From assembly GCA_029861675.1 (NCBI GenBank), contig JAOTYV010000010.1, positions 1 to 34,807 of the forward strand: a DNA stretch of 34,807 nt. Reading direction: 5' to 3'. The notes under the pieces were generated by a model. It did not search any database, had not been told where the DNA came from, and saw nothing but the letters and a program-made list of their open reading frames with translations. The stretch is from Alphaproteobacteria bacterium (GTDB lineage: Bacteria > Pseudomonadota > Alphaproteobacteria > UBA8366). Each line of letters starts with the position of its first letter. The stretch's first letter is position 1. Positions 4,053-30,521 of this stretch are shown here, one piece after another. The translations under genes were made by a program, and so were the position numbers.

Positions 4053-5027
4053 TTACTCGTTGTACAGGTGGCACGAAACCAAATGACCGGGGGCTATTTC
4101 GCGCAGCGGCGGGTCTTGGGTCGCACACTCCGGCTTTGCGAATGGACATCGGGTGTGGAATTGGCAGCCGCTGGGCGGATCCAGCGGCGACGGCACCTCT
4201 CCCGTGAGCACGATTTCGTCGTTCTGCAAGTCCGGATTGTCCGGGAGCACCGCCGAGAACAGTGCCTTGGTATACGGGTGCAATATCTTCTCGAACAAAT
4301 CTTCGGTGGCGGCATATTCGACGATGCGCCCGAGATACATCACGGCAGTTTGATGCGCCATGTGCCGGACCGTCGCCAAATTGTGCGCGATAAGCAGGTA
4401 GGCGACGTTTTCGCGCTTTTGAATGTCTTTGAGCAGATTCAGGATTTGCGCCCGGATGGAGACGTCCAAAGCGGATACCGGCTCGTCGAGCACGATAAGT
4501 TTTGGTTCCGACGCGAGCGCGCTGGCCAGGGCAACGCGCTGACGCTGGCCGCCGCTGAATTCGTGCGGATATTGCTGCGCGTGTTCCGCCCGCAAGCCGA
4601 CTTGCAGCAGCAAATCCGCCACGCGCTGTGCGATGTCGCTGCGGCTTCCCCATTTGTTCACGACAAGGGATTCGGCGATGATCTTGCCGACCGTCATTCG
4701 GGGGTTGAGCGACGACCACGGATCCTGGAAGACCGCCTGCACGCGGGACCGGTACTCGCGCAGCGCCTCGCCCTGAATGTTGTGGATTGGGTTGCCTTGC
4801 AGCAGAACGTGGCCGCTCGTTGGTTCTTCCAGATGGAGAATCAGCCGGGACGTCGTCGTCTTGCCGCACCCTGATTCTCCGACCAGCCCCAGCGTCTCTC
4901 CCGATCCGATCGAAAAGTCGACTCCGTCGACCGCTTTCACATGACCGATGGTTTTCGAAAACAGGATGCCCTTCGTGTAAGGGAAGTATTTGGACAGACC
5001 TTCGACACGCAGCAAGGGCTCCGTCAT
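4053..5027 (-). CDS. Peptide/nickel-type ABC transporter ATPase (DppF/OppF family)
   Basis: A 324-residue cytoplasmic ATPase that powers import with its partner ATPase. Seen: Walker A GESGCGKT (residues 50-57), Q-loop Q101 in FQDPWSSLNPR, signature FSGGQRQR (157-164), Walker B LIVLDEP (177-183) and switch histidine H215. The C-terminal extension has the cysteine-containing segment CQFHTRCPF typical of the oligopeptide/dipeptide ATPase C-terminal domain, which in some members binds an FeS cluster. Its start overlaps the previous gene by four bases (ATGA), so translation is coupled. It is the last gene of the five-gene importer operon running from 9507 to 4053. Confidence 0.95.
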   Translation of the reverse strand: MTEPLLRVEGLSKYFPYTKGILFSKTIGHVKAVDGVDFSIGSGETLGLVGESGCGKTTTSRLILHLEEPTSGHVLLQGNPIHNIQGEALREYRSRVQAVFQDPWSSLNPRMTVGKIIAESLVVNKWGSRSDIAQRVADLLLQVGLRAEHAQQYPHEFSGGQRQRVALASALASEPKLIVLDEPVSALDVSIRAQILNLLKDIQKRENVAYLLIAHNLATVRHMAHQTAVMYLGRIVEYAATEDLFEKILHPYTKALFSAVLPDNPDLQNDEIVLTGEVPSPLDPPSGCQFHTRCPFAKPECATQDPPLREIAPGHLVSCHLYNE

Positions 5028-6004
5028 GCGGGTTCCTCCAATTTCCAGCAGGCGGCCGTGTGCTCACTGCCGACGGTATAGGTCGCGGGATAGGCCGCTT
5101 GGCAACGGTCGTCGGCGTGCGGACACCGCGGTGCGAAACGGCAGCCTTGCGGCAGGTCGGAGAACTCCGGCGGCTGGCCTTCGATCGTGTGCAGGCGGTC
5201 CACTTGCACCTTCATCTTGGGCACGGAGGCGATCAGCGCCTGGGTATAGGGGTGGGCGGGGTTGTTGAAGACTTCGCGGACCGGTCCGCTCTCGACGATG
5301 CGCCCGGCGTACATGACGGCGACACGGTCGCACATTTTTGCGACGACGCCGAAGTCATGCGTGATGAACAGAATCGCCATGTCGGAGTCTTTCTGGAGCT
5401 CCTTGAGCAATTGCAGGTATTGCAACTGTATCGTCACGTCGAGGGCCGTCGTGGGCTCGTCCGCGATCATTACCTGGGGTTCGCAGCTGATCGCGATGGC
5501 GCCGACCACCCGCTGCTTCATGCCGCCGCTCAATTGGTGCGGATACTGGTGTATCCGTTGTTCCGGCGCGGCCAGCTTGACCTTGCGCAATGCCTCGACG
5601 GCCCGTTGGAACACGGTGTCCGCCGGACCCTCGAAATGCTTGGCGATCGCCTCGCGGAGTTGATTGCCGATCGTGAACACCGGGTTCAGGGAGGTCTGCG
5701 GATCCTGCAGGATCATGGCGATCTTGCGGCCGCGAATTCGGCGCATTTCCTGGTCGCTCTTGGTCAGCAGATCTTCTCCGTCCAGCAGGACCTCTCCCTG
5801 CACCGTGCGCGCCGCCCCTTGCGGGAGCAAGCGGAGCAGCGACAGGGCCGTCACGCTCTTACCGCAGGCCGATTCTCCGACCAGGCCCAACACCTCTCCC
5901 CGCCGCAGCGAAAAACTGACCCCGTCGACGGCTTTCACCACGCCGCGGCGCAAAAAGAAATGCGTGTGCAGGTCGCGCACGTCGAGAACGACGTCTCCCC
6001 TCAT
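5024..6004 (-). CDS. Peptide/nickel-type ABC transporter ATPase (DppD/OppD family)
   Basis: A 326-residue ATPase. The frame stays open further upstream, but the ATG at 6004 is chosen because it has a GGAGAG ribosome site just before it and gives the usual N-terminus (MRGDVVLDVRDLHTHF). Seen: Walker A GESACGKS (43-50; alanine replaces the more usual glycine after ESx), Q-loop Q100, signature LSGGMKQR (158-165), Walker B VMIADEP (178-184), switch histidine H216, and a C-terminal oligopeptide-ATPase domain with CRFAPRCPHAD. It couples by a four-base overlap to the DppF-like gene and follows the DppC-like gene after about 40 bases. Confidence 0.95.
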   Translation of the reverse strand: MRGDVVLDVRDLHTHFFLRRGVVKAVDGVSFSLRRGEVLGLVGESACGKSVTALSLLRLLPQGAARTVQGEVLLDGEDLLTKSDQEMRRIRGRKIAMILQDPQTSLNPVFTIGNQLREAIAKHFEGPADTVFQRAVEALRKVKLAAPEQRIHQYPHQLSGGMKQRVVGAIAISCEPQVMIADEPTTALDVTIQLQYLQLLKELQKDSDMAILFITHDFGVVAKMCDRVAVMYAGRIVESGPVREVFNNPAHPYTQALIASVPKMKVQVDRLHTIEGQPPEFSDLPQGCRFAPRCPHADDRCQAAYPATYTVGSEHTAACWKLEEPA

Positions 6005-6044
6005 GATCGCTCTCCATACGGCTTTTCGTCGATAATTCGGTTCA

Positions 6045-6872
6045 TCACAGTTGCCGCAATTTGGGGTCGAGGCGGTCCCGGAGCCAATCGCCGAACAGGT
6101 TAAAGGCAAGCACGACCAAGGTAATGGCGATCCCCGGAATCAGCGACAGCCACCAGGCGCTGGAAATCTTGCCGCGGCCCTCGGCGACCATCAGTCCCCA
6201 GGATGGGGTCGGCGGTGGAACGCCGGCGCCGAGGAAACTGAGAGAGGCTTCGGCCACGATCACCACGCCGACATGCAGGGTCAGCAGCACCATGAAGGTA
6301 TTCAACACGTTCGGCAGGATATGGGTCGCCATGATGCGCACCGGCGAACATCCATGCACCCTGGCCAATGCGACGAAGTCCCGTCCTTTCACGGCCAGCA
6401 CCTCGCCGCGCACCACCCGGGCGAATCGCGCCCAAAGCAGCAGGCTGATGGCGATGACGATGGTTTGCAGGCCCTGGCCCATGGTCACCGCCAGCAGCAA
6501 GGCGAACAGAATGGTGGGGAAGGCGAGAGCCGCATCGACGATGCGCATGAGCAGACTGTCCAGGCGGCCGCCGACATAGCCGGAGACGATGCCGATCGCC
6601 AGCCCCACACCGCCGCCCACCAAAAGCGCGAGTGCGGTCACGATCATGCTTACCCTGGCGCCATAAAACAGCCGGCTGAGGACGTCGCGCCCGAATATAT
6701 CGGTGCCGAGGATGTATTTTGCCGTCCCGCCTTCTTCCCAGACCGGGGGTATAAGCTTTTCCGGGAGCGATTGGTCGATCGGCGAATGCGGCGAGATCAG
6801 GGGTGCGAAGATCGCCATGAACAGCATGGCCGCGATTATGCCCACTGACAGCCAAGGCAGATTTCGCAACAT
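6045..6872 (-). CDS. ABC transporter permease, DppC/OppC family
   Basis: A 275-residue inner-membrane permease. The N-terminus MLRNLPWLSVGIIAAMLF is the first membrane segment, followed by the family signature LGTDIFGRDVLSR near residues 55-67, which is typical of DppC/GsiD-type subunits. Several more hydrophobic segments follow, and the cytoplasmic EAA coupling loop (EVLAVKGRDFVALARVHG, near 155-172) contacts the ATPases. It starts four bases after the DppB-like gene stops, as expected of a coupled pair forming the translocation pore. Confidence 0.95.
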   Translation of the reverse strand: MLRNLPWLSVGIIAAMLFMAIFAPLISPHSPIDQSLPEKLIPPVWEEGGTAKYILGTDIFGRDVLSRLFYGARVSMIVTALALLVGGGVGLAIGIVSGYVGGRLDSLLMRIVDAALAFPTILFALLLAVTMGQGLQTIVIAISLLLWARFARVVRGEVLAVKGRDFVALARVHGCSPVRIMATHILPNVLNTFMVLLTLHVGVVIVAEASLSFLGAGVPPPTPSWGLMVAEGRGKISSAWWLSLIPGIAITLVVLAFNLFGDWLRDRLDPKLRQL

Positions 6873-6876
6873 CTTG

Positions 6877-7797
6877 TTATTCCGCCAATCGGATGCGCGG
6901 GTCGATATAGGCGTAGAGGATATCGACCATCAGGTTGATGAGGAGGATTAGGACGGCGTCCATGATGATGACGGCCTGCAGGAGCGGGTAATCCCGGAAG
7001 ATCACGGCTTCGAACGTCAGCCGGCCGATGCCGGGCCAGGCGAAGACGGTTTCCGTGACGATGGCGCCGGTTACCAGGCCCCCCATGAACACGCCCCAGA
7101 GCGTGAGCACCGGGATCAGTGCATTTCGCAGACAATGCTTCCAGACCACGGTTGTCTCGCTCAAACCCTTGATGCGGGCGAGCTTGACGAATTCGCTATC
7201 CAGGATATCCAGCATGCTGGATCGGATCAGCCGCATGAACCCGGCGACAAGAAAGGTACCCAAGGTGATGGTCGGCAGGACGTAGTGAAGGGGCGTGCCC
7301 ATGCGCGCGGAGGGCAGCCAGCCCAGTTGCACGCTGAAAACATAGATCAACAGGATTCCGAGCCAGAAGTTGGGCGTGGCGATTCCCAACACGGCGATGG
7401 TTCCCGAGACCCTGTCTATCATGCTACCGCGGCGCACCGCCGACACGATGCCGAGCGGAATGGCCATGATCATGGCGAGAATCATGGCGGCTGGAACGAT
7501 CTTGAGGGTGTTGGGCAGGCGCGAGAAGAATATTTCCACCACCGGTCTGCGATAGCGGTGAGATACGCCGAGGTCGCCTTGCAGGACATTCACGACGAAG
7601 ATGCCGAACTGTTTGTACATCGGGGCGTCCAACCCCAAGGTTTCGATCAGGGCGGTGCGGTCTTCTTCGGTCGCATCTTCGGGCAGCATTAGGTCGACCG
7701 GATTGCCGGTGAGGCGCCCGAGGAAAAAGACGATCGTCGTCACCAGAGCGAGGAGAATGACCCCCTGCCATAGCCGCTGCAAAATATAGCGCCGCAT
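6877..7797 (-). CDS. ABC transporter permease, DppB/OppB family
   Basis: A 306-residue inner-membrane permease. Seen: first membrane segment with LLALVTTIVFFLGRLTGNP, the DppB-type region LGLDAPMYKQFGIFVVNVLQGDLG, several membrane spans, and the EAA loop EFVKLARIKGLSETTVVWKH near residues 200-220. It forms a heterodimeric pore with the next gene. The gap to the binding-protein gene upstream (7798-7857) holds small hairpins that may lower expression of permeases relative to the binding protein. Confidence 0.95.
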   Translation of the reverse strand: MRRYILQRLWQGVILLALVTTIVFFLGRLTGNPVDLMLPEDATEEDRTALIETLGLDAPMYKQFGIFVVNVLQGDLGVSHRYRRPVVEIFFSRLPNTLKIVPAAMILAMIMAIPLGIVSAVRRGSMIDRVSGTIAVLGIATPNFWLGILLIYVFSVQLGWLPSARMGTPLHYVLPTITLGTFLVAGFMRLIRSSMLDILDSEFVKLARIKGLSETTVVWKHCLRNALIPVLTLWGVFMGGLVTGAIVTETVFAWPGIGRLTFEAVIFRDYPLLQAVIIMDAVLILLINLMVDILYAYIDPRIRLAE

Positions 7798-7817
7798 TTA
7801 ATTTTGTCTTTCGGCAA

Positions 7818-7858
7818 GGGGAGTCCCCGCGGCCGCAAAGACCGCAGGGTGAAACCCT
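7818..7858 (-). promoter_or_regulatory. Intercistronic hairpins between binding-protein and permease genes
   Basis: Two short inverted repeats lie in the 60-base gap: AGGGT/ACCCT (7846-7850/7854-7858) around a GAA loop at the binding-protein stop codon, and GGGG/CCCC (7818-7821/7825-7828) next to the palindrome GCGGCCGC. There is no T-run, so they look like partial attenuation or mRNA-stabilising structures rather than a full terminator. Such elements commonly keep the binding protein in excess of the permeases. Confidence 0.4.
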
Positions 7859-9507
7859 TACTTCCAGGCCATTTGCCCAGGCAGAGGCATGCGCTCGAAC
7901 ACGTCGCCGAACTCGTGGCGTCCGGGAATCGGCTTGAACGCACCGACCTTCTTGGGATTGACGGCCCAGTAGCCCATCCCTTCGAGAATCGGAACCGCCA
8001 CCCAGGAATCCGCCACCAACTTGATCATGCGGTTGGTGTTCTTGGTCCGCGTGGCGTCGTCCTGCTCCGCCACGACAAGCTTGTGAAGGCTGTTAAATTC
8101 CTTGCAAAGCGCCGGACAGATATTTTTGTCGCCCTTGGTGTTGCCGAACAGGTGCGACAGGCTCTTGCTGTGAAAGCCCGACATGTATCGGGCGACGGCG
8201 ACCGGCCGTCCTGCGGTGCGATACATGGAAGCGCCGCCCCGCAGTTTCTCTTGTCCCCGCCGCAATGCGCGGAAGGCGCCCCACTCATAGTGCTTGTATT
8301 TGACCTTGACGCCGATCTTGCTCCAGAAGTCGGCGACGGCCAGACCGATCTGGACCATGTACGGGGTCCCGGGCAGGGCGGTATTGGCGAATTTGAGATC
8401 GAAGCCGTTCGGATACCCCGCCTCGGTCAGCAGTTCTTTTGCCCGCGCGGGATCGTAGCGCAGCGCCTTGCGGCTCCACTTCCGCCATTTCTTCGTGTCC
8501 ATATCGACGCTGTATCCGAAGGTGGCGAAGGGCATCGGCCACCGGGCTTCCCCGTTCATCACGTGGTCGATGATTTGCTTACGGTCGATGGCGAGCGAGA
8601 GGGCCTCCCGCACGCGCTTGTCGGCGATCGGATTGTTCTTCTGATCGTCGCGATAGGTGCCCCAGAAATAATAGACCGCCTGCATCGTCGACGGGACCGA
8701 GACCACTTTCAACTTGGCCGATTTGACCTCCTTGAGCGATTCCGGGCTGATGCTGGCAATTGCCGCCTCGCCGGTCCTGACCATTGCGACCCGGGTGCTT
8801 TCCTCGGGCACCAGCAGGATGGTCATCCGTTTGAATTTGGGCGTGCCGCGCCAGTGCGGGTAATCGACCGCTTCGTACTCGACGCGGTCGCCCGGCACGC
8901 TTTTGACGATCTTCCAGGGACCGCTGCCAATCGGTTTCCGGCGGAATTCGGCGACGCCGACCTTCTCGATGTATTTTTTGGGCATCATCTGCCCTTCCTG
9001 GAACACCGCCCGGCTCATGCTTGCGGGAAAGTGGACCTGCACGCCCTTGGTGTTTACGCGCACGGTAAGATCGTCGATCACCTCGATGCTCTTCACGTTC
9101 CGCCGCAACGCCGCCGAACGGGAAGCAACCGATTCCTTCGACATGGTGCGTTCGAGGCTGAATTTCACATCATGCGCGGTGAGGGGATCGCCGTTGTGCC
9201 ATCGCTGGCCTTTTCGAAGATAGAAGGTCCAACTGAGGCCGTCCTTGGCGAGTTCCCAGCGCTCGGCGACACCCGGTCCAATGCCGCCTTTTTCAAAATC
9301 GAACCCGACGAGCGAGTCGAATACGGGCGCTTGAAAATGCGCATGCGACGCCCGGGTTTCCAGGATCGGATCCAGGTTTTGACCGCCCAGGGTGTCGAGG
9401 GCAATGACAAGCGTGCCCTTTTGCTCCGCTGCAATCAGCGGGGTCCAAGTGAAAGTCACAAGTACGAAGGATATCAACAGGCCCGTTAATAGTCCGCGAT
9501 GTTTCAT
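7858..9507 (-). CDS. ABC transporter substrate-binding protein, family 5 (peptide/nickel type)
   Basis: About 549 residues, usual for the family. The ATG at 9507 is preferred over a GTG 12 bases earlier because a GGGAGTGAGG ribosome site precedes it. A signal peptide is visible: MKHR then the hydrophobic LLTGLLISFVLVTF and a cleavage-like LIAA site, so the mature protein is periplasmic. Seen: the family region GGIGPGVAERWELAKDGLSWTFYLRKGQRWHNGDPLTAHDV (read in parts near residues 75-115). No lipobox cysteine is present. First gene of the importer operon. The ligand may be a peptide, amide, glutathione or other small molecule; the sequence does not say. Confidence 0.93.
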   Translation of the reverse strand: MKHRGLLTGLLISFVLVTFTWTPLIAAEQKGTLVIALDTLGGQNLDPILETRASHAHFQAPVFDSLVGFDFEKGGIGPGVAERWELAKDGLSWTFYLRKGQRWHNGDPLTAHDVKFSLERTMSKESVASRSAALRRNVKSIEVIDDLTVRVNTKGVQVHFPASMSRAVFQEGQMMPKKYIEKVGVAEFRRKPIGSGPWKIVKSVPGDRVEYEAVDYPHWRGTPKFKRMTILLVPEESTRVAMVRTGEAAIASISPESLKEVKSAKLKVVSVPSTMQAVYYFWGTYRDDQKNNPIADKRVREALSLAIDRKQIIDHVMNGEARWPMPFATFGYSVDMDTKKWRKWSRKALRYDPARAKELLTEAGYPNGFDLKFANTALPGTPYMVQIGLAVADFWSKIGVKVKYKHYEWGAFRALRRGQEKLRGGASMYRTAGRPVAVARYMSGFHSKSLSHLFGNTKGDKNICPALCKEFNSLHKLVVAEQDDATRTKNTNRMIKLVADSWVAVPILEGMGYWAVNPKKVGAFKPIPGRHEFGDVFERMPLPGQMAWK

Positions 9508-9589
9508 GACGCACCTCACTCCCTGAATGGCAATAAATTCGTTGGTTAGTCAGTCTCCTAAAGATTCTATGCGTGGTGTTCTGTCTAAA

Positions 9590-11195: not shown

Positions 11196-12098
11196 ATGCC
11201 GATTACTGTTTCGCCCCAAAGTCCCAGTTTCTTCGCCGAGGTCCGGGGGGTAGACCTTACCGGGCCGCTCGCTCCCGAAATTCTTGCCGAAATAGACGCC
11301 GCCTTCGATGCCTATGCGGTGCTGGTGTTTCCCGGCCAATCGCTGACCGACGAACAGCAGGTCGCCTTCAGCGCCCATTTCGGGCCGGTCTTCACCGCGA
11401 CGAATTACCACCGGCCGGGCAAGGAACGCCGATTGCGCCCGGAAATGGCAGACATTTCGAATATCGGCCATGACGGCGGACTGCTCTCCGCGGATGACGA
11501 ACGCCGGCTGCACGGCCGCGCCAACCAGCTCTGGCACACCGACAATACCTTCAAGCATATCCCGGCCCGCTGTTCGCTGTTGGCGGCGCACGAGATTCCG
11601 CCGAGCGGCGGCAACACCGAATTCGCCGACATGCGGGCGGCCTACGACGCGCTGCCCGAGGAGCGCAAGCGCGAGATCGATGGTCTGATCGCCGAGCACA
11701 GCATCTTTTATTCGCGCGAGAAGATGGGCTTCACCGGATTTTCCGACGGCGCCCGCGCGGAATTGCCGCCGGTGCAGCAGGTGCTGGTGCGAACCCACCC
11801 GGTTACCGGCCGCAAGGCGCTGTACATCGCGTCGCACGCGTCGCACATCATCGGATGGCCGGTGGAAAAGGGCCGTCAATTGATCGAGGAACTGCTCGAC
11901 TTCGCGACGCAGCCGCAATTCGTGCACGCCCATCGCTGGCATACGGGCGATCTGGTGCTTTGGGACAATCGCTGCACCATGCATCGCGCCCGGCCCTATG
12001 AAGAAATGACCCGGCGGCGGGTGCTGCATCGGACGACCGTGTCCGACGAAATCAACTCGGTCGAGCGCGCGCGTCGGGAACGGACCAGCGCCGCCTAG
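11196..12098 (+). CDS. TauD/TfdA-family Fe(II)/2-oxoglutarate dioxygenase
   Basis: 300 residues. Family knowledge: hydroxylates a substrate using 2-oxoglutarate and O2, often cleaving sulfonate, ether or ester analogues. Seen: the iron-binding HxD in LWHTDNTF (H114, D116), the distal histidine in RCTMHRARP (H263), and the 2-oxoglutarate arginine in RRRVLHRTTV (R274 or R279). N-terminal FFAEVRGVDLTGPL is the usual opening. It resembles the TfdA/alpha-ketoglutarate 2,4-D dioxygenase branch more than taurine dioxygenase in the spacing, but that is an impression. The aldolase gene follows after 24 bases and is likely cotranscribed. Confidence 0.93.
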   Translation: MPITVSPQSPSFFAEVRGVDLTGPLAPEILAEIDAAFDAYAVLVFPGQSLTDEQQVAFSAHFGPVFTATNYHRPGKERRLRPEMADISNIGHDGGLLSADDERRLHGRANQLWHTDNTFKHIPARCSLLAAHEIPPSGGNTEFADMRAAYDALPEERKREIDGLIAEHSIFYSREKMGFTGFSDGARAELPPVQQVLVRTHPVTGRKALYIASHASHIIGWPVEKGRQLIEELLDFATQPQFVHAHRWHTGDLVLWDNRCTMHRARPYEEMTRRRVLHRTTVSDEINSVERARRERTSAA

Positions 12099-21165: not shown

Positions 21166-22002
21166 TCAGCCGAGCAAGGGTGTGTAGTCGTCGAGCAGGC
21201 GCAGCACGGCGTCCCGGTCAGCCGACGGCAATTCGAACAACGCCCGCGTGACGCCCGCTTCGGCGTAGCTGTCCAGCACCGGTTTTTCCGCTGGTGCACG
21301 GAATACGGTGACTGACAGGGATTTCATGTCGCGGCCCGCTTCGTCCGCCGCTGCCTGCAGGCGCGCCATGCTTTCGGCGGCGTCGAAGCCGTGGCTCGCA
21401 CGCGGGAACCAGCCGTCGCAGAACTCTACCACCCGGCGCAGCGTGTATTTGCTCTCGCCGCCGAGAATCACCGGCGGGTGCGGTGTCTGCACGGGTTTTG
21501 GGTAAGACCAGGATTTTTCAAACTGGACAAAGTCGCCATGGTACTCGGCCACTTCTTCGGTCCAAAGCGCCTTCATCGCCAGGATGTGTTCCCGCATTAG
21601 CTTGAAGCGGGTGTCGTACTGCACGCCGTGATCGTTCATTTCCTCGACATTCCAGCCGCCGCCGATGCCGAAGATGAACCGGCCGCCCGACAGCCGGTCG
21701 AGGCTGGCCGCGCATTTGGCGGTGACGATCGGATCGCGCTGCGGCACCAGGCAAATTCCGGTGCCGAGTTCCAGCTTCTCCGTCGCCGCTGCGGCAAAGG
21801 ACAGGGAAACGAACGGATCATAGGTATGGGAATATTTTTTCGGCAGCTCATCGCCGCCGCTCCAGGCGGATTTCCGGCTGATCGGAATATGTGTGTGTTC
21901 CGGCACGAACAGTGAGTCGAAGCCGCGATCCTCCAGGGTACGGGCGAGTTCCGCGATTTCGATGGTGTATTCGGTGGCAAAAATAAAGACGCCGATGCGC
22001 AT
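21166..22002 (-). CDS. LLM-class flavin-dependent oxidoreductase (TIGR03619-like)
   Basis: 278 residues from the ATG at 22002, which is chosen because AGGGGA lies eight bases before it; the ATG at 22008 is too close. Family knowledge: bacterial-luciferase-like TIM barrel enzymes using FMN or F420. Seen: FVPEHTHIPISRKSAW (near 30-45), LELGTGICLVPQRDPI (near 75-90), the LDRLSGGRFIFGIGGGWN signature (near 98-115) and PHPPVILGGESKYTLRR (near 168-185). In alphaproteobacteria FMN is more likely than F420. It heads the small operon with the glutathione transferase and cupin. Confidence 0.9.
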   Translation of the reverse strand: MRIGVFIFATEYTIEIAELARTLEDRGFDSLFVPEHTHIPISRKSAWSGGDELPKKYSHTYDPFVSLSFAAAATEKLELGTGICLVPQRDPIVTAKCAASLDRLSGGRFIFGIGGGWNVEEMNDHGVQYDTRFKLMREHILAMKALWTEEVAEYHGDFVQFEKSWSYPKPVQTPHPPVILGGESKYTLRRVVEFCDGWFPRASHGFDAAESMARLQAAADEAGRDMKSLSVTVFRAPAEKPVLDSYAEAGVTRALFELPSADRDAVLRLLDDYTPLLG

Positions 22003-22138
22003 GTTCATGTTCCCCTGGTGACAGCCGATGTGTTGTCGCGCCACCGTGCCACAGGGCGGGCGGACGACACCAGATTAACATGTTTGGGTGGGAATTTTAG
22101 GCGCTGGGCGGGTTTGCCGCGAGTATCGTGTTGCGCGC

Positions 22139-23335
22139 TTAGGCGGCGCCTTTGCGCTGGTGCGTCGGCCCGTTGTCCCGGGCACGCTCATGGGCCGCGA
22201 AGAACGGCGGAATGTCGTCCGCGGCAATCGGCTTGGAAAAGAAATAGCCTTGCGCGTAATCGCAACCGAAGCTCCGCAGCATCTCCAAGGATGCTTCGTT
22301 CTCGACACCTTCGGCACAGACCTGGAGCCCGAGGTTATGGCCCATGTCGATGACGGTCTTGGCGATAACGGCGTTTTCCTTTGTCTTGTCCATACCGAAA
22401 ACAAACGACTTGTCGATCTTGATTTCCGAAAATGGCAGACGCTGCAATTGGACCAGCGATGAATACCCGGTCCCGAAGTCGTCGATCGACAGGGAAAATT
22501 CCTTGAGCCGGAATCGCGCCAGGACGTCCATCATCTTAGCGGCGTCCCGCATGCTCGCCGTTTCGGTTAGTTCCAACGTAAAATTGTTCGGCTTGAGTCC
22601 CGCCGCATGGCACATCTCCGCCAGCGAATCGGGAAGGCTCAAATCATGCAGATTGGTGGCTGAAATATTGACCGCGAGGTTCATGTCGAAGTCATCCGCA
22701 GCCCATTTCGCCATCTGATCGACCGCGTTTCGCATCACCCAGTTGGTCAGCGGTCCCATCAGGTCATTTTCCTCCGCATAGGGGAGAAAGGTGTCCGGCG
22801 GCATGATCGCACCCGACGGGGGCCGCCAGCGGACCAAAGCCTCGGCCCCGACCGCGGTGCCGGCGCGGACGTCAATCTTAGGCTGATACACCAGGAACAA
22901 TTCGTCGTTTTCGATCGCCTTGCCGAGGCCGTCGACGCCGGCCTTATCCGATCCGGATTTCAGGTTCTCCAGCAATTCGCGTATCTCGGCGAGGCGGACC
23001 GGCTTATTCAACGCGCCGCGCATCTCAAGGCCAAGCTCACTGCCCAATCGAATGGTGGTATCGATGGTTCGGGCATCGATCCCGCTGCAGAGCACTACGT
23101 TGGCGGTGGCGCCTTGGGCGGCCATCGCGCGCAACAATTCGATGCCGTCGGTATCCGGCATTTGCAGGTCGATGATCACCACCGTCGGGCACCAAGTCGC
23201 GAGCCGGTGGAAGAATTCATCCGCCTTGTCGGTGTAGGCTGTGACGTAGCCGGACATCTCGCCGCCCTTCGCGACGATCTTCGCCATTTTCAGCTCGTCG
23301 TCGATGATGAGCAGCCGTTCTTCGCCGTCGCTCAT
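22139..23335 (-). CDS. Response regulator with EAL domain (c-di-GMP phosphodiesterase)
   Basis: 398 residues. Receiver domain at about 5-125 with phospho-acceptor D56 (VVIIDLQMPDTDG) and K111; EAL domain at about 135-385. Catalytic residues appear intact: E165 in AEALVRW, N223 in AVNIS, E255 in LELTET, D285-D286 in IDDFGTG, K306 in EIKIDKS and E342 in AEGVE. Family knowledge: hydrolyses cyclic-di-GMP to pGpG, so phosphorylation would change motility, adhesion or envelope programmes. Its start is one base after the kinase stop, so the two are translationally coupled and the receiver is the likely target of that kinase. Confidence 0.95.
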   Translation of the reverse strand: MSDGEERLLIIDDELKMAKIVAKGGEMSGYVTAYTDKADEFFHRLATWCPTVVIIDLQMPDTDGIELLRAMAAQGATANVVLCSGIDARTIDTTIRLGSELGLEMRGALNKPVRLAEIRELLENLKSGSDKAGVDGLGKAIENDELFLVYQPKIDVRAGTAVGAEALVRWRPPSGAIMPPDTFLPYAEENDLMGPLTNWVMRNAVDQMAKWAADDFDMNLAVNISATNLHDLSLPDSLAEMCHAAGLKPNNFTLELTETASMRDAAKMMDVLARFRLKEFSLSIDDFGTGYSSLVQLQRLPFSEIKIDKSFVFGMDKTKENAVIAKTVIDMGHNLGLQVCAEGVENEASLEMLRSFGCDYAQGYFFSKPIAADDIPPFFAAHERARDNGPTHQRKGAA

Positions 23336-23336
23336 A

Positions 23337-25238
23337 TCAGGCGGCCTTTAGATTGCGTTCGATCACCATCGCCAGTTCTAGGCGGCGATAGGGTTTCATC
23401 AGCAACTCGACATCGGCGTCCGCGGCATCTTCCCAGGTGTCCACGCCGGATGGCCGCGCCGTGAAACCGGAAGTCAGGACGACCGGCAACTTCGGATATT
23501 GATCGGCGATCAGCGCCGCAAGGCCTATGCCGTCCATTTCGCCCGGCATCACAACATCGGAAAACACCAGATCGATGTGGTCTTCCCGCTGCAGGACTTC
23601 GATGGCGGCGGACGCCCTATCGGCCTCAACGACTTGGTATCCCAATTCGATCAATTGCTTGCGGGCGACGCGGCGAATGCCTTCGTTGTCATCGACCAGG
23701 AGAATTGTCTCGCCGGTGCCATGGGGCTCTGGGGTGGCGTCCTCTTCGGCTGTCATGCCCTGCACTTCGCTGCCGTCGCGCGGCAGGTATAGCTGCACCG
23801 TCGTTCCTCGGTCGGGTTCGGAGTAGATGCTAACGTGACCGCCGGATTGCTTGATGAAGCCGTCGACCATGCTCAGGCCGAGGCCGGTTCCCTGACCGAC
23901 TTCTTTGGTCGAGAAGAATGGATCGAAGACGCGCTTCAGAATTTCGGTCGGAATGCCGATACCCCCATCGGTGACCGACAGCACCACGTATTCGCCCGGT
24001 TCGATTTCGAAATTCTGATCGGCCATGGATTCGTCGACCTGCATGTTGCGGGTCTCGAGGGTCAAGTGGCCGCCATTCGGCATGGCGTCGCGGGCGTTGA
24101 CCGTGAGGTTGAGGATTGCCGTTTCGAGCTGACTCGGGTCCACCTTGATCGGCCAGACGTCGGCGTTGCATCGGAGAGCGATTTCGATGTTTTCGCCGAG
24201 CGAACGGCGCAGCAGCTTGGTCATGCCAGTAAGGGTCTCGTTGATGTCGATGACCTCCGGCTTGAGCGGCTGCCGGCGCGCGAAGGCGAGCAATCTCCGG
24301 TTCAGCTCGCGGCCCCGAAGGCCCGCCTCGAGCGCGTCATCGACCAATTCACTCGACGCTTCGTCGTCGGCCAATTGCTCCTTCAACATGTCCAGGTTGC
24401 CGATCAGGATGCCAAGCAGATTATTGAAGTCATGCGCGATGCCGCCGGTGAGATTGCCCACCGTTTCCATCTTTTGCGCATGTTGGAGTTTCTCGAGGGT
24501 TTGCCGCAACTCATCCTCGCGCTGCTCCTTGAGGCGCAGGGCCTCGGCCAGCTTGTCAACGGAACCGCTGAGATTGTGAAGTTCGGATGACCGAAAGCGG
24601 GAAGATCCAAGGTCGACGTTGAGTTTACCCTCGGCGAAATTCGTGAGGCGGCGGCTGATGTTGTTGATCGGGTTGAGCGCCAGATATTCCACCAAGGCGA
24701 TGACGATGACCGCAAACAGGAGCATGCCAATGCCCACGAAGAATTGGATGATCAGGGCGTGCCGCTTAATTTCCGCCCGGACGTTGGAGAAATTCCACTC
24801 AATGTCGATTTCACCGAAGGTTTCCCCTTCGAACACGATGCTTTTTGAAAATTTCACCGGCTCGATCTGCGCCGGAACGATCTTGTTGGCCCACCGGGCG
24901 AGGGTTTGACCGTTTTCGTTCAGGATGTTGATCGCCATCAGGTCGGCTTCTTCGCCTGCTACCTGTTGAACGATCGTTTTCAACAGCGGCTGATCTTCTG
25001 AAATGACGGCTTCCAAGGCAGCGGCCGTGATGATGTGAAAGGTCTGTTCGCTTTGCTGGTGCAGCTTCTGTCGCAGGTAGCTGGTCTCCAGTTTCTGAAC
25101 GACCAGACCGGAGACGAAGGCTACGCCGATCGCCGCGAGCGCCAGTGCGGCCATGATTTGCCGGCGCAACGAAAAATGCCAGGGTTGCGCGGACTTATCT
25201 TTGCGGTTCCTTGAAGTATTAGATGCTTGCATGACCAT
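23337..25238 (-). CDS. Membrane hybrid sensor histidine kinase with C-terminal receiver
   Basis: 633 residues from the ATG at 25238 (AAGGTGG nine bases upstream); a TTG at 25268 is an alternative. Layout: membrane segment 29-47; periplasmic sensor about 48-158 without a recognisable fold; membrane segment 160-185; HAMP about 186-240; phospho-histidine H269 in GGIAHDFNNLLG; ATP-binding region with N381 (NLTVNARDAMPNGG), DGGIGI (424-429) and GTGLGLSMV (450-458); receiver 510-633 with D561 (FSDVVMPG) and K615. Family knowledge: such FNN-type kinases pass phosphate through their receiver to another domain; no histidine phosphotransferase lies nearby. The PhnD-like gene upstream may supply the ligand-binding part. 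Confidence 0.95.
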   Translation of the reverse strand: MVMQASNTSRNRKDKSAQPWHFSLRRQIMAALALAAIGVAFVSGLVVQKLETSYLRQKLHQQSEQTFHIITAAALEAVISEDQPLLKTIVQQVAGEEADLMAINILNENGQTLARWANKIVPAQIEPVKFSKSIVFEGETFGEIDIEWNFSNVRAEIKRHALIIQFFVGIGMLLFAVIVIALVEYLALNPINNISRRLTNFAEGKLNVDLGSSRFRSSELHNLSGSVDKLAEALRLKEQREDELRQTLEKLQHAQKMETVGNLTGGIAHDFNNLLGILIGNLDMLKEQLADDEASSELVDDALEAGLRGRELNRRLLAFARRQPLKPEVIDINETLTGMTKLLRRSLGENIEIALRCNADVWPIKVDPSQLETAILNLTVNARDAMPNGGHLTLETRNMQVDESMADQNFEIEPGEYVVLSVTDGGIGIPTEILKRVFDPFFSTKEVGQGTGLGLSMVDGFIKQSGGHVSIYSEPDRGTTVQLYLPRDGSEVQGMTAEEDATPEPHGTGETILLVDDNEGIRRVARKQLIELGYQVVEADRASAAIEVLQREDHIDLVFSDVVMPGEMDGIGLAALIADQYPKLPVVLTSGFTARPSGVDTWEDAADADVELLMKPYRRLELAMVIERNLKAA

Positions 25239-25290
25239 TTCCAAAACCCACCTTGGGTGCAATCCCAATCTCGAAGTCTATTTTTCCCGT

Positions 25291-25330: not shown

Positions 25331-26221
25331 CTACTTGTTCCTGCGTCGCGCAATGCTCGCCCGTGTCTTGAAAAACAACTGGTTGCCCAAAATCGCTTCA
25401 CGGATGAACGCGTAGTCTTCGTCGCTGCCCACGAGGAACCCATCCTTCGCCAAAGACTTCATCGCCTTTGAGTTGTTCAGGGTAAGCAACGCTTCCCGCA
25501 GCAGTCTGATTTGCAGATCGGGAAGGCCGCCGCGGGCGATCCAGGGCTTGGTAACGTTCGGAAACTTCGCAATGGCCCGCAGGGGTACACCATCTTTGAC
25601 GAGTTTCATGAAGGTGCTTTCTTTCAAGGCACCGGCGGCAAACCGGCCGGCGCCAACCGCGGCACCAACGGCGTCATGGCGCCCGAGATATTCGTAGTGG
25701 CCCAGATCGCCCACCTTCATGCCGTGGCGCAGCAGATGTAACTGGGCGAGATACCGGCCGATCGTCGAACGTTCGTCGCCGAAGGCAAAGGTTCTGCCGC
25801 GCAGCTGCGTGACTTCCGTAATCTCGCTGTCCTTGTCGACGCAGATGACGCCGTTGAAGACCTTGCTGCCGTTATTGCTTTCCACAGCGATGATTTTTAT
25901 GCGCGGATCGCCGTTTTTTGCCTCGATATAGGACGCAGGGCCGAACCGCGCGAAGTCCACCTTGCCGGTAACCAGATCCTTGACGCCCTGCTCGTACGAC
26001 TTCGCGACGTGCATTTGTATCCGGATAGGACCCTTGTGCAGGCCGGCCATTTGCCGCTCGAGCGCGTTCAGCACCGGACGGAACTGCCGTACCATGGAAG
26101 ACGGCTTGTCGGAGGAGTAGACGCCGAAGGAAAGCGTAATCTCGCTTTTGGCGTAAGCATCCAGTGAAAACCCGCCCAACAGCACGATCAAGGAAGTCAA
26201 CCGGATGAGCGACGAGCGCAT
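25331..26221 (-). CDS. PhnD-like periplasmic substrate-binding protein (phosphonate/oxyanion-type fold)
   Basis: 296 residues from the ATG at 26221, chosen because it has an AGGAG site and begins a signal peptide (MRSSLIRLTSLIVLLGGFSLDAYA, read in parts; cleavage near residue 24). Seen: ITLSFGVYSSDKPSSMVRQFRPVL opening, LVTGKVDFARFGPASYIEA (the typical PhnD turn), LRGRTFAFGDERSTIGRY with the SxSG-like anion loop, and GALKESTF. Family knowledge: PhnD-type proteins bind phosphonates, phosphite and similar anions, and PhnD-like domains are also the sensor part of kinases such as TtrS. No permease or ATPase gene is adjacent; a kinase is, so a sensory job is the better guess. Confidence 0.9.
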   Translation of the reverse strand: MRSSLIRLTSLIVLLGGFSLDAYAKSEITLSFGVYSSDKPSSMVRQFRPVLNALERQMAGLHKGPIRIQMHVAKSYEQGVKDLVTGKVDFARFGPASYIEAKNGDPRIKIIAVESNNGSKVFNGVICVDKDSEITEVTQLRGRTFAFGDERSTIGRYLAQLHLLRHGMKVGDLGHYEYLGRHDAVGAAVGAGRFAAGALKESTFMKLVKDGVPLRAIAKFPNVTKPWIARGGLPDLQIRLLREALLTLNNSKAMKSLAKDGFLVGSDEDYAFIREAILGNQLFFKTRASIARRRNK

Positions 26222-26354: not shown

Positions 26355-29300
26355 TTAAACATTTTTATGCCCTCCCGCCTTGCTCTCAATGGTAGCGGTA
26401 GAGCCTTCCACGTTGCCGTCCGGATCTAAGTCGTCCTCCGAGGGATCGGCGCGTTCGATAACCTCGATCGTGCCATCCAGGTTCAATTGCAGCAGATCAC
26501 CGGTATTGATCCGGAATTCCGCGCCTTTCACCCCGACAATCGTATTGATGTTGTATTCCCGTGCGAGGATCGAAGTGTGGCTGAGCCAGCCGCCGACTTC
26601 CGTCACGATCCCCTTGAGGCGCGGGAAGACGGGCGTCCAGCTCGGATGCATGTATCGCGCAACGGCGACCTCGCCATCCTCGACCATATCGATTTCCTGG
26701 CTGGTCAAAACCCGGGCGCGACCCGTGATTGGGGCACTACCAGCAACCAGCACGCCGCGCAAATCTTCGCCCGCATCGATGTCTTCGTCGGGATCGCCGG
26801 CCGGCGACAAACGCTCTAGCTGACGGAGCGTCAGGCTTGTCGGAAGCGGCGGGAGTGACTCGAACTGTTCGGCGGCGGCACGGCGATAATCGATCAACGC
26901 GACCAATTCATCGTGAGCACCCGTGTCCCGCAGCTTCTCCAATTCATCGATCTTGAGATAGAAGATGCCGCCCTCAAGCTCCAGGCGCCGGTCCAGTTCG
27001 ACCAGCATCTGGCGGATGACCGAGATTTCACGCAAGGAGTGATTCTTTGCCTCTTCCTTGAGATTTTGGAATTTTCGGGCGCGCGATACGGTGATCGCCA
27101 GCGTGGCGTCGTCCGGCAATTCTGCGCTTTCCGGGCTATTGCCGTCCAGGGCGGTCATCGACGCGGCACTCTCGAGCAACTGCTCCATCAATTCCGTATC
27201 GTCGCGGTAGCGCGGCTGCGCCAATTCGTAGTCGATGGTGGCCCGGTGTCCGAAGACCGACAGAAATTCTTCGACCTTTTCGCTGTCCGAGCGGGGTCCG
27301 CCCAGCAGGCTCATGGCATAATGGACGATCGTCTTGGGTCCCTGTCCCAAATACGCACCGGTCGTCAGGCCACGCTTGCTGAGGGCGCGTTCCGCCGCAC
27401 GCATATAGAAGTCGGCGGTAATATTGATAACATCGACCTGAACATGCGATTCATGGAAATACCGGTCGCAGGTGTCGTCGAGCAGATCGACAAGATCGTC
27501 GGTCGGCAGACGCTTGCAATCCATCGCTTCGAGGATCCGCAAATCGGACAGGTAAGCCGGCAGGAAATTCTCGCGGAATTCATGCTCCAGCGTCTCGGCG
27601 CCACGCGACAACCGGAAGGATGCCAGTGGACCAAGTCCCTTGCTGGAACGCCGATGCGTTTCGGGAACATTGACATAGAGGCCGCCGAAAACGGATGCGG
27701 TATACGGGGGCGCGTCTTCGCCGACATTGTAGGGAACGCCGAGTTTACGACATGCCAGATCCACGCTCCCACCGGGCTGCCAGAGGGCTTCCATGAAGGA
27801 CGCGCTCATCGGAGTCGGCCGCGGCAACAGCTCGGACAACTCGTTCTGGGCCAGAATTGTTCCTTCCATGTCGCCGGATCGGGCGATCTCAAGCAAGCGG
27901 TGACGTTCCGCCTCAAACAGGCTGGTCGGGGTCACCTCGCTCTGTGTCCGCGCCAGGACGGTAATATTACGCGCCTGCAGAATGAAGAACCGGCCGTCCT
28001 TAAAGGCCCATTCAATGTCCTGGGATTCGCCGAACAGCTCCTCCACCTGTAGTCCAAGTTCGATCAGCGGCATCAGGTCCATCGGCGGGATCGCATCATC
28101 CAGCGGTTTCCGGCTGATACGGCCGAATGCGAAGGAAGTCGGCTCCTCGGTGCCACTGGCAAGTTTATCGCCAAGGCCGTCGGTCATCTCCACAAGCAGC
28201 GTGCCGCTTTGCATCGGGTGCTCGGTGAACAGGATGCCAGCATACTCCGCATCGACTAATTCCTGGACGATCACGCCGCCGCCCGCAGGCTCGTCATTCC
28301 CGTAAAGTTCGGCATCGTTCGTAATCAGCGACACACGCACTGATTCGATTGCCGAGACAAGCGAGTCGGGATCGACATCCAAGATCGAATCGAAGACGCC
28401 GGCATAGCTATGGTCTTCTCCGTCCTCACCGAGGCCCGAGCTGCGCACCGCCATGCGGAACAGTCCTTGGCGTTGGCTAAGCTGGGCGAGGCGGATCGCC
28501 TCATCCTCTTTGAGCGTCGAGCCTGACCCATTGGTCGCAAAGGCGGCATCCGGAACAATCAATCCACCGGGAACCGGCAGGCCGGCTTCCATCATCAGCG
28601 ACAGGCGTTGCGCCTTGGTGCCGACACCGGCAATGCGATGGGCGTTCTTAATAAACTCGACCCGGGGCGCCAAAGGCCTGGGCGCATTCGCACCGCGCGG
28701 GTCGGATTTGCGCATGGCGAATCTGACGCAGACCGTCTGCAACAGCATGAGCGCAAGGCTAAGGATCAGGTACAGCGTCAAAGCGGATTTAAGGGTCGCG
28801 GTGAGCGCGATGAAGAACACACCGACACCAAGATGGAAGAGGAACAGCTTGGTTGTGTGGCGTACCACGTTGATACGAAGCTGAAAGAAGACCAGCGCAC
28901 CCAGCAAGACCGGCAAGGCGAAGGTCGGATCCGGCAGCCCAATATCGGCGATCCAAAGGAACGGGCCGCTGTTCGGCTGCGCCACCGTCGAGACTGCGGA
29001 AAAGAAAGCGACGAGCAGGATCAATTGGAGGACCAAACCCAGCACGTTGCGGGTGGGCGTCAGGCCATTCTCGCGATAGAGCTTCTTGATCGCGTCTTTC
29101 AGGCGTTGCGGATCCCCCTTGAGCTTTTCCTTCAACTCGGAGATACGGTCGGCAATCCGCCGCTCGACGATTTGATCGCGTTCGCTCTTGATGGTGAAGG
29201 GCAGCAGCAGGAACCTAAGGACGGCGAGCACAAGGAAGATTGCCAGCACCATATTGCCGGTGCGGTGCAGCGTCAGCGACAAACCGGAGTCGAACGGCCG

Positions 29301-30521
29301 GCGGATAATGCTGAATACGTTTCCATCGTTGGCGTCGAGCCAGCGTTGAACATGGGGCTTCGCCGCCGAGGCTTGGTAATATTCGTGCGGGACCGTGTAT
29401 CGGCCGCGGAAATCGAATCCGCGCCGGTGCAGGCGGAGTCCGAGAATCTGGGAATAGAAACAGCTCCGCTTATCGTAACACGGCGCAACGATGGGGCGCT
29501 TCGGCAGCTTGGCGAAGGCGGCATCGATTTCCACACTCGTCATCTTGCGCAACGTCATGTTGACAGCCGAGGGCAAATGCCCGGCCTGAAAATCGTCGGG
29601 ATAGCGGACGTCTACAAAAAGCGCGTTCTCCTCAGCGACAAGGGTCTGGACTTCGGGCGTGTCCAGCAATACGTCGTCGTTCGGAAAGGCGGGCAGCGAC
29701 CGAAGCGCTTCCGTCGATTGCGTTCCCGCGATCTGCGCATTGCGGCCTTCCGCTTTCCATTTCTCGAACCCGCCAACGATGAACCGGCAGTCGATGCCGA
29801 CCTTTTTCAACGCGGCGCAGAGCTCGGAACTGCGGTTGCCGGAATGGCACAACAGCACGTTTTTCTTACCGGCGATCTGCGCCTCCTTGGCGCGCGCGAT
29901 CAATTCCGGATAGGGAATATGCGTGAACCCGCCAAGCTTGCCCCCTTCGAGTTCTTCGGCTTCGCGGACATCAATCAAGGAAATGCCGCCGGCGGCTATG
30001 CCATCCGTCAGATTGATGGATGCCAGGAGGCTGTCCAGCTCCGCGGTGCTGATGCCCTGCGGGTGGCCGACCTGTTCGCTAAATGCCAGCGTTTTGAGGG
30101 AGGTATCGCCGACCTTGTTGCCGGCCTCGGTCGAAGACCGCGTCAGATTGGTCCGCAGACGCGTTTCGGTCGCGTCGCGCTCGTTGGCCCACTGCAAGGT
30201 ATTTATGGCGGCCGATCCGACCAGGGCGACGCAGACCACGCCGAGCACCATGCGGGAGGCGCCACCGGCGGCGGCCGTCCTGCGGCCGCGGCGCTTACGT
30301 CCTTGTTGTGAAAACAGCGCACCGCCGACGGCGAGGGTCAGCAAACCGAATATTTGCGCAATGTTTGAGAAAAAGCTCACCATGACGTCCGGCGACGGAA
30401 TCGCAAGCGCCGGCCGTGCGAGAACGCACAGCGTCAAAACAGCGAGGAGCAAGCGCCAAGAATCTTTTCCACCCGTGTGGAGGCAGCGCTTTATAGCGGG
30501 TATACAGCGTGATTTCATCAT
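26355..30521 (-). CDS. Giant membrane fusion: tandem rhodanese - YidC/Oxa1-like core - PEP-synthase ATP-grasp - phosphohistidine domain
   Basis: 1388 residues. Order: membrane segments 22-40, 50-70, 91-108; rhodanese 1 about 157-262 with cysteine loop CHSGNRS (C225); rhodanese 2 about 288-382 with CYDKRS (C348); YidC/Oxa1-like region about 418-605 with the in-membrane arginine (AVLRFLLLPFT, R436), helical hairpin ending RLKDAIKKLYRENGLTP (473-489) and FLWIADIGLPDP (521-532); PEP-synthase-type ATP-binding domain about 618-858 with GVGTKAQRL, RMAVRSSGLGEDGEDHSYAG and SQDIEWAFKDGRFFILQARNIT (in parts); helical unassigned stretch about 860-1250; swinging domain about 1255-1358 with catalytic histidine H1315 in GGWLSHTSILARE. 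The C-terminal PEP/pyruvate barrel is absent. Positive-inside charges (RKRRGRR at 75-81) put the rhodanese pair in the periplasm and the ATP domain in the cytoplasm. Function unknown; no frameshift is needed, one continuous frame covers all. Confidence 0.9.
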   Translation of the reverse strand: MMKSRCIPAIKRCLHTGGKDSWRLLLAVLTLCVLARPALAIPSPDVMVSFFSNIAQIFGLLTLAVGGALFSQQGRKRRGRRTAAAGGASRMVLGVVCVALVGSAAINTLQWANERDATETRLRTNLTRSSTEAGNKVGDTSLKTLAFSEQVGHPQGISTAELDSLLASINLTDGIAAGGISLIDVREAEELEGGKLGGFTHIPYPELIARAKEAQIAGKKNVLLCHSGNRSSELCAALKKVGIDCRFIVGGFEKWKAEGRNAQIAGTQSTEALRSLPAFPNDDVLLDTPEVQTLVAEENALFVDVRYPDDFQAGHLPSAVNMTLRKMTSVEIDAAFAKLPKRPIVAPCYDKRSCFYSQILGLRLHRRGFDFRGRYTVPHEYYQASAAKPHVQRWLDANDGNVFSIIRRPFDSGLSLTLHRTGNMVLAIFLVLAVLRFLLLPFTIKSERDQIVERRIADRISELKEKLKGDPQRLKDAIKKLYRENGLTPTRNVLGLVLQLILLVAFFSAVSTVAQPNSGPFLWIADIGLPDPTFALPVLLGALVFFQLRINVVRHTTKLFLFHLGVGVFFIALTATLKSALTLYLILSLALMLLQTVCVRFAMRKSDPRGANAPRPLAPRVEFIKNAHRIAGVGTKAQRLSLMMEAGLPVPGGLIVPDAAFATNGSGSTLKEDEAIRLAQLSQRQGLFRMAVRSSGLGEDGEDHSYAGVFDSILDVDPDSLVSAIESVRVSLITNDAELYGNDEPAGGGVIVQELVDAEYAGILFTEHPMQSGTLLVEMTDGLGDKLASGTEEPTSFAFGRISRKPLDDAIPPMDLMPLIELGLQVEELFGESQDIEWAFKDGRFFILQARNITVLARTQSEVTPTSLFEAERHRLLEIARSGDMEGTILAQNELSELLPRPTPMSASFMEALWQPGGSVDLACRKLGVPYNVGEDAPPYTASVFGGLYVNVPETHRRSSKGLGPLASFRLSRGAETLEHEFRENFLPAYLSDLRILEAMDCKRLPTDDLVDLLDDTCDRYFHESHVQVDVINITADFYMRAAERALSKRGLTTGAYLGQGPKTIVHYAMSLLGGPRSDSEKVEEFLSVFGHRATIDYELAQPRYRDDTELMEQLLESAASMTALDGNSPESAELPDDATLAITVSRARKFQNLKEEAKNHSLREISVIRQMLVELDRRLELEGGIFYLKIDELEKLRDTGAHDELVALIDYRRAAAEQFESLPPLPTSLTLRQLERLSPAGDPDEDIDAGEDLRGVLVAGSAPITGRARVLTSQEIDMVEDGEVAVARYMHPSWTPVFPRLKGIVTEVGGWLSHTSILAREYNINTIVGVKGAEFRINTGDLLQLNLDGTIEVIERADPSEDDLDPDGNVEGSTATIESKAGGHKNV

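Follow-up and report, generated by a model that had tools for sequence, protein, structure and literature searches.

A single gene in the 34,807-nucleotide stretch of alphaproteobacterial DNA analysed here (contig JAOTYV010000010.1 of assembly GCA_029861675.1; hereafter the window) encodes a protein in which two rhodaneses, a YidC/Oxa1-type membrane core and a phosphotransfer half of two further domain families follow one another in one chain. The gene lies at 26355-30521 (-) and is open from ATG to stop over 1388 codons. Each of its modules has a textbook job, and none is known to have been described together with the others. No published description of the combined modules was found in searches of the open-access PMC literature; the automatic database name of one relative, P0053, lists all of them, so annotators can already see the architecture.

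Domain order and family of the fusion gene

The 1388-amino-acid product was scanned against Pfam-A, and four families were found above their curated cut-offs in the order Rhodanese (twice), 60KD_IMP, PPDK_N and PEP-utilizers along the chain. PPDK_N scored 98.1 bits (cut-off 27) in two stretches, 60KD_IMP 90.2 bits (cut-off 35) over residues 425-599, Rhodanese 70.7 bits (cut-off 22.2) in two stretches and PEP-utilizers 63.1 bits (cut-off 23.1) over residues 1281-1347. Among the best 25 of 56 families in an NCBIfam scan, the model yidC_oxa1_cterm (TIGR03592) reached 92.8 bits against a cut-off of 84.3. These scores and the intact frame bear out the uninterrupted four-module protein that an earlier note had described from the letters alone, and the residues which it singled out (C225, C348, H1315 and a core arginine, here R436 in the first helix of the conserved core) are all present.

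The same architecture recurs in a family of distant relatives. Of 7993 candidates scored in a database search, 390 proteins were kept; among the matches listed, 119 of 120 relatives carry all four Pfam families in one protein, the remaining one, P0017, having the other three families without a rhodanese, and the four were found again on rescanning every one of 33 aligned members. The names of the listed relatives include Planctomycetota, Rhodospirillales, Gammaproteobacteria, Deltaproteobacteria and the cyanobacterium Lusitaniella coriacea. The fusion is also found on plasmids: 196 plasmid records matched, 81 of them covering 80% or more of the query at a single location, and the plasmid fusions among the matches listed are some 35-37% identical to the query and come from Phaeobacter, Leisingera, Ruegeria, Parasedimentitalea and others. 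In Phaeobacter, Leisingera and Ruegeria the current annotation is “PEP/pyruvate-binding domain-containing protein”. The earlier note had allowed that the frame might be an assembly chimera of separate genes; this was rejected, since relatives (119/120 listed, 33/33 aligned) and the 81 plasmid records share the architecture, and with the catalytic residues invariant as well, we leave next to no probability to either a chimera or a pseudogene.

Residue conservation was counted over 121 sequences, and topology and charge over the 33 aligned ones. The near-invariance of the key residues of each module, set out below, argues that every module is used; and since the active sites are strictly kept over distant bacteria, the join itself would appear to do something.

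The distribution was followed in several further collections. In one phylum (that of genome G003; the locus is titled Thermodesulfovibrionia) the fusion was found in 2 of 245 genomes, both of one family. When genome contigs were scanned with the window's protein, 28 partial relatives turned up and none of full length, and at a threshold of E 1e-150 the fusion was found in 0 of 297 genomes around G006 and 0 of 240 around G001, empty results that are uninformative as mostly two candidates or fewer were scored per genome. A phage or virus origin was rejected, none of 15 matching phage records reaching 80% coverage and the viral contigs giving one partial match. When the rhodanese-YidC half was used alone, 38 proteins were found, 32 with rhodanese and 6 ordinary YidC proteins. 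Of the 32, the ends of four were inspected: three run into an out-of-register tail shortly past the core or close to it, and one ends within the core, so that these four look like frameshifts or contig ends; a true split form may still occur among the 32. Separately, a precomputed Pfam domain, PF27448, is reported in many relatives (for example P0012, P0018 and P0101) and was not seen in the window's protein; a local Pfam scan of P0012 gave no such match.

The membrane half and the dikinase half

The YidC/Oxa1 core covers residues 425-599 (28725-29249 (-)) by Pfam, NCBIfam and structure-profile alignment. The wider stretch of residues 418-605, on whose YidC match the earlier note had staked its reading, is matched both by YidC profiles and by solved YidC structures, the profile alignment giving 105.8 bits with the E. 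coli protein (5mg3) and 75.9 bits with B. halodurans YidC2 (3wo7). In register with YidC are the core arginine, the glutamine of the third stretch, the tryptophan and aspartate of FLW...DP and the final LY. The groove arginine of the first core helix, which we take to be R366 in E. coli and R72 in B. halodurans, is R436 in the fusion (29214-29216). This residue and K445, D449, W523, D531 and Y584 are kept in all 121 sequences, and Q499 in 120; PF02096 was found in 33 of 33 aligned members. Insertases of this family have five core membrane helices and a positively charged C1 hairpin on the cytoplasmic side. Hydropathy of the fusion's core peaks at residues 424-442, 493-511 and 535-553, followed by a merged run at 556-604 that is long enough for two helices, and the C1 region carries a net charge of +5.7. 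A model of residues 41-622 had a mean predicted local distance difference test (pLDDT) score of 63.8, with about 75-85 in the core, and when it was searched against the PDB by fold the first match was YidC (3wo6, E 1.2e-8, template modelling (TM) score 0.74 over the target), with the tandem rhodanese 6mxv next.

YidC of Gram-negative bacteria has a periplasmic P1 domain and a C-terminal tail. No Pfam match to P1 was found in the window's protein or in the 33 members, and the rhodaneses stand in that place. The fusion therefore resembles the YidC/Oxa1/Alb3 proteins (E. coli 5mg3/3wvf, B. halodurans YidC2 3wo6) in its core domain, putative C1 hairpin, groove arginine, glutamine, FLW...DP tryptophan and aspartate and final LY, whereas it differs from them in having two rhodaneses for P1, an extra N-terminal hydrophobic hairpin and a dikinase of some 770 residues for the short tail. 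An ordinary YidC is also encoded in both of the fusion-bearing genomes of the G003 phylum that were tested, so the fusion is an extra.

Hydrophobic stretches were found in the aligned sequences at residues 23-41, 46-64, 91-109, 424-442, 493-511, 535-553 and 556-604. The first of these (30399-30455 (-)) is predicted from hydropathy to be a signal peptide or first membrane helix and ends ALA/IPSPD; the IPSPD that directly follows it (30387-30401) is present in 115 of the 121 sequences, with IPSPE in three and gaps in three, and such strictness points to a strongly constrained mature N terminus. Next comes a predicted membrane hairpin, residues 46-109 (30195-30386 (-)), in which helices at 46-64 and 91-109 flank a positively charged loop. 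Net charges of the inside type were found for the loop 70-89 (+5.1), C1 (+5.7, as above), 553-562 (+2.2) and 603-634 (+1.7), and of the outside type for 41-47 (-0.9), 110-417 (-1.7) and 516-534 (-2.1). By the positive-inside rule, charge and hydropathy together predict an inner-membrane protein with the rhodaneses outside and the C1 hairpin and dikinase inside. In this predicted arrangement the rhodaneses would occupy the place of P1 and the dikinase that of the C-terminal tail of Gram-negative YidC.

The rhodanese cysteine loops had been called intact in the earlier note, which is correct for the first domain but not for the second. Rhodanese 1 (residues 173-258, 29748-30005 (-), by Pfam) has its catalytic Cys225 at 29847-29849 in the loop C225-H-S-G-N-R, which fits CxxGxR, and the cysteine is kept in 120 of 121 sequences, the other having a gap. 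Rhodanese 2 (about residues 285-380, 29382-29669 (-), the second Pfam stretch with limits from alignment) has Cys348 at 29478-29480, kept in 116 of 121, in the non-standard loop CYDKRS, which lacks the G of CxxGxR. Profile, fold match and the domain 1 cysteine loop ally the pair with known rhodaneses (the tandem 6mxv, the single 3gk5); unlike those, it is predicted to be periplasmic, is tied to an insertase core and has CYDKRS in its second loop.

In the dikinase half, an ATP-grasp domain at about residues 634-855 (27957-28622 (-)), placed by Pfam, conservation and alignment to rifampin phosphotransferase (RPH), is followed by a predicted RPH-like substrate-binding domain at about residues 870-1255 (26757-27914 (-); approximate limits from alignment and fold search) and a phosphohistidine swivel domain at residues 1281-1347 (26481-26681 (-); Pfam and conservation), whose His1315 lies at 26577-26579. 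The earlier note had labelled this half as of phosphoenolpyruvate (PEP) synthase type. PEP synthase has a central histidine domain and then a PEP/pyruvate-binding barrel; the fusion shares with it and with pyruvate phosphate dikinase the ATP-grasp and phosphohistidine domains, but its histidine domain is C-terminal and no Pfam match to the barrel was found in the 33 members. The best solved relatives by profile are rifampin phosphotransferases, at 239 bits; PEP synthase (8a8e) also matches strongly, at 201 bits, over the two domains in common. The label was dropped: the fusion scores 116.4 bits with the PEP synthase model TIGR01418, whose cut-off is 739.75. Membership of the rifamycin-inactivating phosphotransferase family was likewise rejected (NF041857, 157.5 against 999 bits), and the match to the full-length NCBIfam model of prodigiosin ligase is far below its cut-off.

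K636, R693, E837, Q849, R851 and H1315 are kept in all 121 sequences, and on alignment K636, R693, E837 and H1315 correspond to Lys22, Arg117, Glu297 and His825 of RPH-Lm. Catalytic roles for residues of RPH-Lm are given in the parts of PMC4844700 drawn on here, which describe a small molecule phosphorylated from ATP through the swivel histidine and assign an Arg/Glu pair, 666/667, to the substrate site. K1155/E1156 probably stand at the place of that pair, judged by alignment to one RPH-type relative and by the spacing to the histidine (159 against 158), RPH-Lm itself being unaligned there; K1155 likely stands where RPH has the arginine of the second catalytic pair. A model of residues 618-1360 had a mean pLDDT of 67.3, and its fold search placed RPH at ranks 1-8, HpeI at 9 and PEP synthase at 10; the whole-chain TM-scores are low (0.25-0.29), so the fold match supports the domain types and not their arrangement. 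The middle domain has family signatures (ELSELLPRPTP, GHRAPxDYELAQPRY and LKEEAKHH) which a stand-alone RPH-type protein of Rubrobacter shares in outline only.

Taken on its sequence, the phosphotransfer half is an RPH-type small-molecule dikinase, with ATP-grasp, substrate domain and swivel histidine and without a PEP barrel. Small molecules are the substrates of RPH-type enzymes, and those known frequently phosphorylate phenolic groups, according to the portion of PMC12167813 consulted. In the domains named, ending with a C-terminal swivel histidine, the fusion is like RPH-Lm (5hv1, 5fbs) and the phenol dikinase HpeHI (HpeI 9goj), the latter to the extent that this source covers it; unlike them, its dikinase is joined to a membrane protein, lies far below the rifamycin-family cut-off and has a likely K1155 for the arginine.

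Neighbouring genes and a likely partner

The next gene downstream of the fusion in the window encodes a PhnD-like periplasmic binding protein (25331-26221 (-); PF12974, 162.9 bits; the frame opens at 26389, and the start at 26221 was set by comparison with Phaeobacter). Its best solved relative is PtxB (80.9 bits), ArrX giving 35.3 bits. Between the window and Phaeobacter the binding proteins are 50% identical and the fusions about 36%. Six roseobacter plasmid loci (L029-L032, L048 and L050) were retrieved by way of either a fusion or a Tritonibacter binding protein; in all of them the binding-protein gene is adjacent to the fusion in divergent orientation, and a hybrid kinase gene lies behind it. 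A seventh record (W06, Leisingera M658) is a circular sequence with the fusion at one end and the binding protein at the other. A close binding protein was found in 82 plasmid records and the fusion in 81, these being two separate counts. Between the 120 listed fusion matches and the 120 listed binding-protein matches there are 12 identical longest-contig sizes, against a mean of 0.31 and a maximum of 4 in 400 shifted comparisons in which the lists were offset by 1 to 200 bases; judged by their equal sizes, these are apparently shared contigs. In the G003 phylum, binding proteins of 243 and 231 bits occur in the two fusion genomes; the top score among the remaining 243 genomes is 124 bits, and 17 of the 245 pass E 1e-30. 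Over this material (roseobacter plasmids, two genomes of one phylum and the 12 contigs inferred) the PhnD-like protein recurs with the fusion and is likely its partner.

AioX-type sensing of As(III) was considered for the partner and rejected, no cysteine being conserved in seven aligned partner binding proteins, an alignment from which AioX is absent; the As(III)-binding residue of AioX is Cys108 in the section of PMC7533571 used. A PF12974 binding protein beside a membrane histidine kinase is what the AioX/ArrX three-component systems and the PtxB/PhnD proteins have in common with the present set, which differs from AioX in its lack of a conserved cysteine and also includes the fusion protein. 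In Ruegeria sp. TM1040 the binding-protein gene (L029 10778-11563, 55% identity) is absent from the distributed gene table and is encoded in the DNA. Binding-protein relatives of 33-36% identity in G525, G494, G375, G421 and G371 lie in frames of 567-599 codons and may be fused to another domain.

Beyond the binding-protein gene the window encodes a CckA-like membrane hybrid histidine kinase (23337-25268 (-); Pfam, NCBIfam and alignment) and a response regulator with an EAL domain, of the cyclic di-GMP (c-di-GMP) phosphodiesterase family (22139-23335 (-); Pfam). The kinase is 26% identical to that of the roseobacters over 625 columns, the sensor region included, and the receiver arrangement differs; searches for it in genomes G320 and G329 gave generic kinase matches only. 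PilZ domains bind c-di-GMP through the motifs RxxxR and [DN]xSxxG. Among the matches listed, 44 of 120 relatives have a PilZ tail, 37 of these with both motifs, and in two of six relatives scanned (P0069 and P0104) a GAF domain follows it; Pfam gave no PilZ match in the window's own protein.

In both fusion genomes of the G003 phylum the binding-protein gene is near SoxY-like (L046 6995-7477; L047 2144-2617), HlyD-type and OEP-type genes, and in one of them it is also near a protein kinase gene and a gene of PF03601, presumably the sulfate-exporter family. The SoxY-like neighbours in both genomes and the PF03601 neighbour in one are a hint of sulfur.

Elsewhere in the window are an F420-type luciferase-like oxidoreductase gene (21166-22044 (-); TIGR03619, 270.5 against 166.9 bits) that lies 94 bases after the EAL regulator gene on the same strand, a TauD-family dioxygenase gene (11196-12098 (+)) and an oligopeptide-type ATP-binding cassette (ABC) operon with its own binding protein (5024-9519 (-)). 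Rfam and tRNA scans of the window gave no matches.

Possible roles of the fusion

The earlier note had pictured a membrane machine with a sulfur-handling part outside and ATP-dependent phosphotransfer inside. As a prediction this outline is favoured by the profiles, the positive-inside topology and the near-invariant catalytic residues; that anything passes through a YidC-like channel or groove is a step we only infer. The recurrent binding protein, the sensor kinase and the links to c-di-GMP go beyond what that note reported. The single most likely scheme, chosen because it gives every conserved part a job and put forward tentatively, is vectorial phosphorylation on the YidC-type core, linked to the binding protein. 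A ligand would be captured in the periplasm, and this capture would be coupled to a phosphorylation on the cytoplasmic side; the ligand is probably an oxyanion of the sulfur or phosphorus type, or else a group carried by a rhodanese cysteine. Delivering or reporting it would fall to the binding protein, next to which no permease of its own type is encoded, and sulfur would sit on the rhodanese cysteines (C225 or C348). Through the YidC groove, which opens towards the cytoplasm, the ligand or its carrier would gain access to the inner side of the membrane and there be phosphorylated by the swivel histidine, itself charged from ATP. The adjacent kinase (in the window and the roseobacters, joined in the window by the EAL regulator) may tune expression and c-di-GMP to the same ligand, and in PilZ-bearing members c-di-GMP may act on the fusion itself.

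Group translocation by the phosphotransferase system (PTS) is driven by PEP and uses a sugar permease and a phosphohistidine domain. The fusion resembles it in joining a phosphohistidine domain of the same family to a membrane part, and the vectorial logic is what is proposed here; unlike the PTS, the fusion uses an ATP-grasp domain and not PEP and has an insertase core and not a sugar permease, and transport by it is hypothetical. In the most specific form of the scheme an insertase fold would have become a group translocator fed by a binding protein, with persulfide handover from the rhodanese, passage along the YidC groove, ATP-driven trapping by phosphohistidine and control by c-di-GMP; taken as a whole, this is unlikely.

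Several points weigh against vectorial phosphorylation with the binding protein as its feeder. We know of no YidC homologue shown to carry small molecules, and ligand, substrate and activity are established for no member. Confidence in the models is modest (mean pLDDT 63.8 and 67.3), and the RPH fold match has a TM-score of only 0.25-0.29 over the whole chain. Fifteen further genomes of the G003 phylum have binding proteins of 30-36% identity and gave no fusion in the search of that phylum; in both of its fusion genomes binding protein and fusion are on different contigs, no histidine kinase was found among the scanned neighbours, and, being of one family, the two count as one event at most. 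An eighth record, a plasmid of Pseudorhodobacter turbinis, of which the plasmid only was searched, has the binding protein and the kinase and no fusion, and the binding protein could serve the kinase alone. Finally, the kinase of roseobacters has as its neighbour a metal ABC operon that includes a zinc binding protein, and the lack of a permease nearby rests on annotation.

Nearly as likely is a role in signalling, in which a sulfur or oxyanion signal in the periplasm would be detected by the binding protein and rhodaneses, relayed by the core and answered by the dikinase, which would make or remove a phosphorylated signal molecule inside, no substrate crossing the membrane. In its favour, both the partner kinase and the EAL regulator belong to signalling, the C terminus of relatives can bear a fused PilZ domain and in some members GAF, and AioXSR-type systems pair PF12974 binding proteins with kinases, at least in the part of PMC7533571 seen. 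This relay would not by itself explain the groove residues of the insertase, invariant in 121 sequences, and the binding protein of the G003 phylum does not have the kinase as a neighbour. It uses the same parts as vectorial phosphorylation without the transport, and the two are not distinguishable here.

Alternatively, and with a rather lower probability, the core could insert particular client proteins, the rhodaneses acting on client cysteines and the dikinase phosphorylating or energising the client or a lipid-linked cofactor. The YidC score above its curated cut-off and the retained hallmark residues are consistent with such a dedicated insertase, and as an ordinary YidC is present in both genomes tested, this copy would be free to specialise; however, no client gene is linked to it, the inner module is of a small-molecule dikinase type and the binding protein has no obvious place. 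That the core merely anchors in the membrane two enzymes of one pathway, a sulfurtransferase in the periplasm and a dikinase in the cytoplasm, is improbable: fusions do often join enzymes of one pathway, but for an anchor there would be no need to retain R436, Q499, W523 and D531, which are present in 120-121 of the 121 sequences.

If vectorial phosphorylation is true, its pairing of outer capture with inner phosphorylation would be new to biology, and the group translocator would be a principle of coupled uptake apart from ABC importers and the PTS. The small-molecule dikinases gain a membrane-bound branch, and the fusion is a direct test of whether the YidC/Oxa1 fold does more than insert proteins, and ordinary marine laboratory strains of Phaeobacter, Leisingera and Ruegeria offer a testable system.

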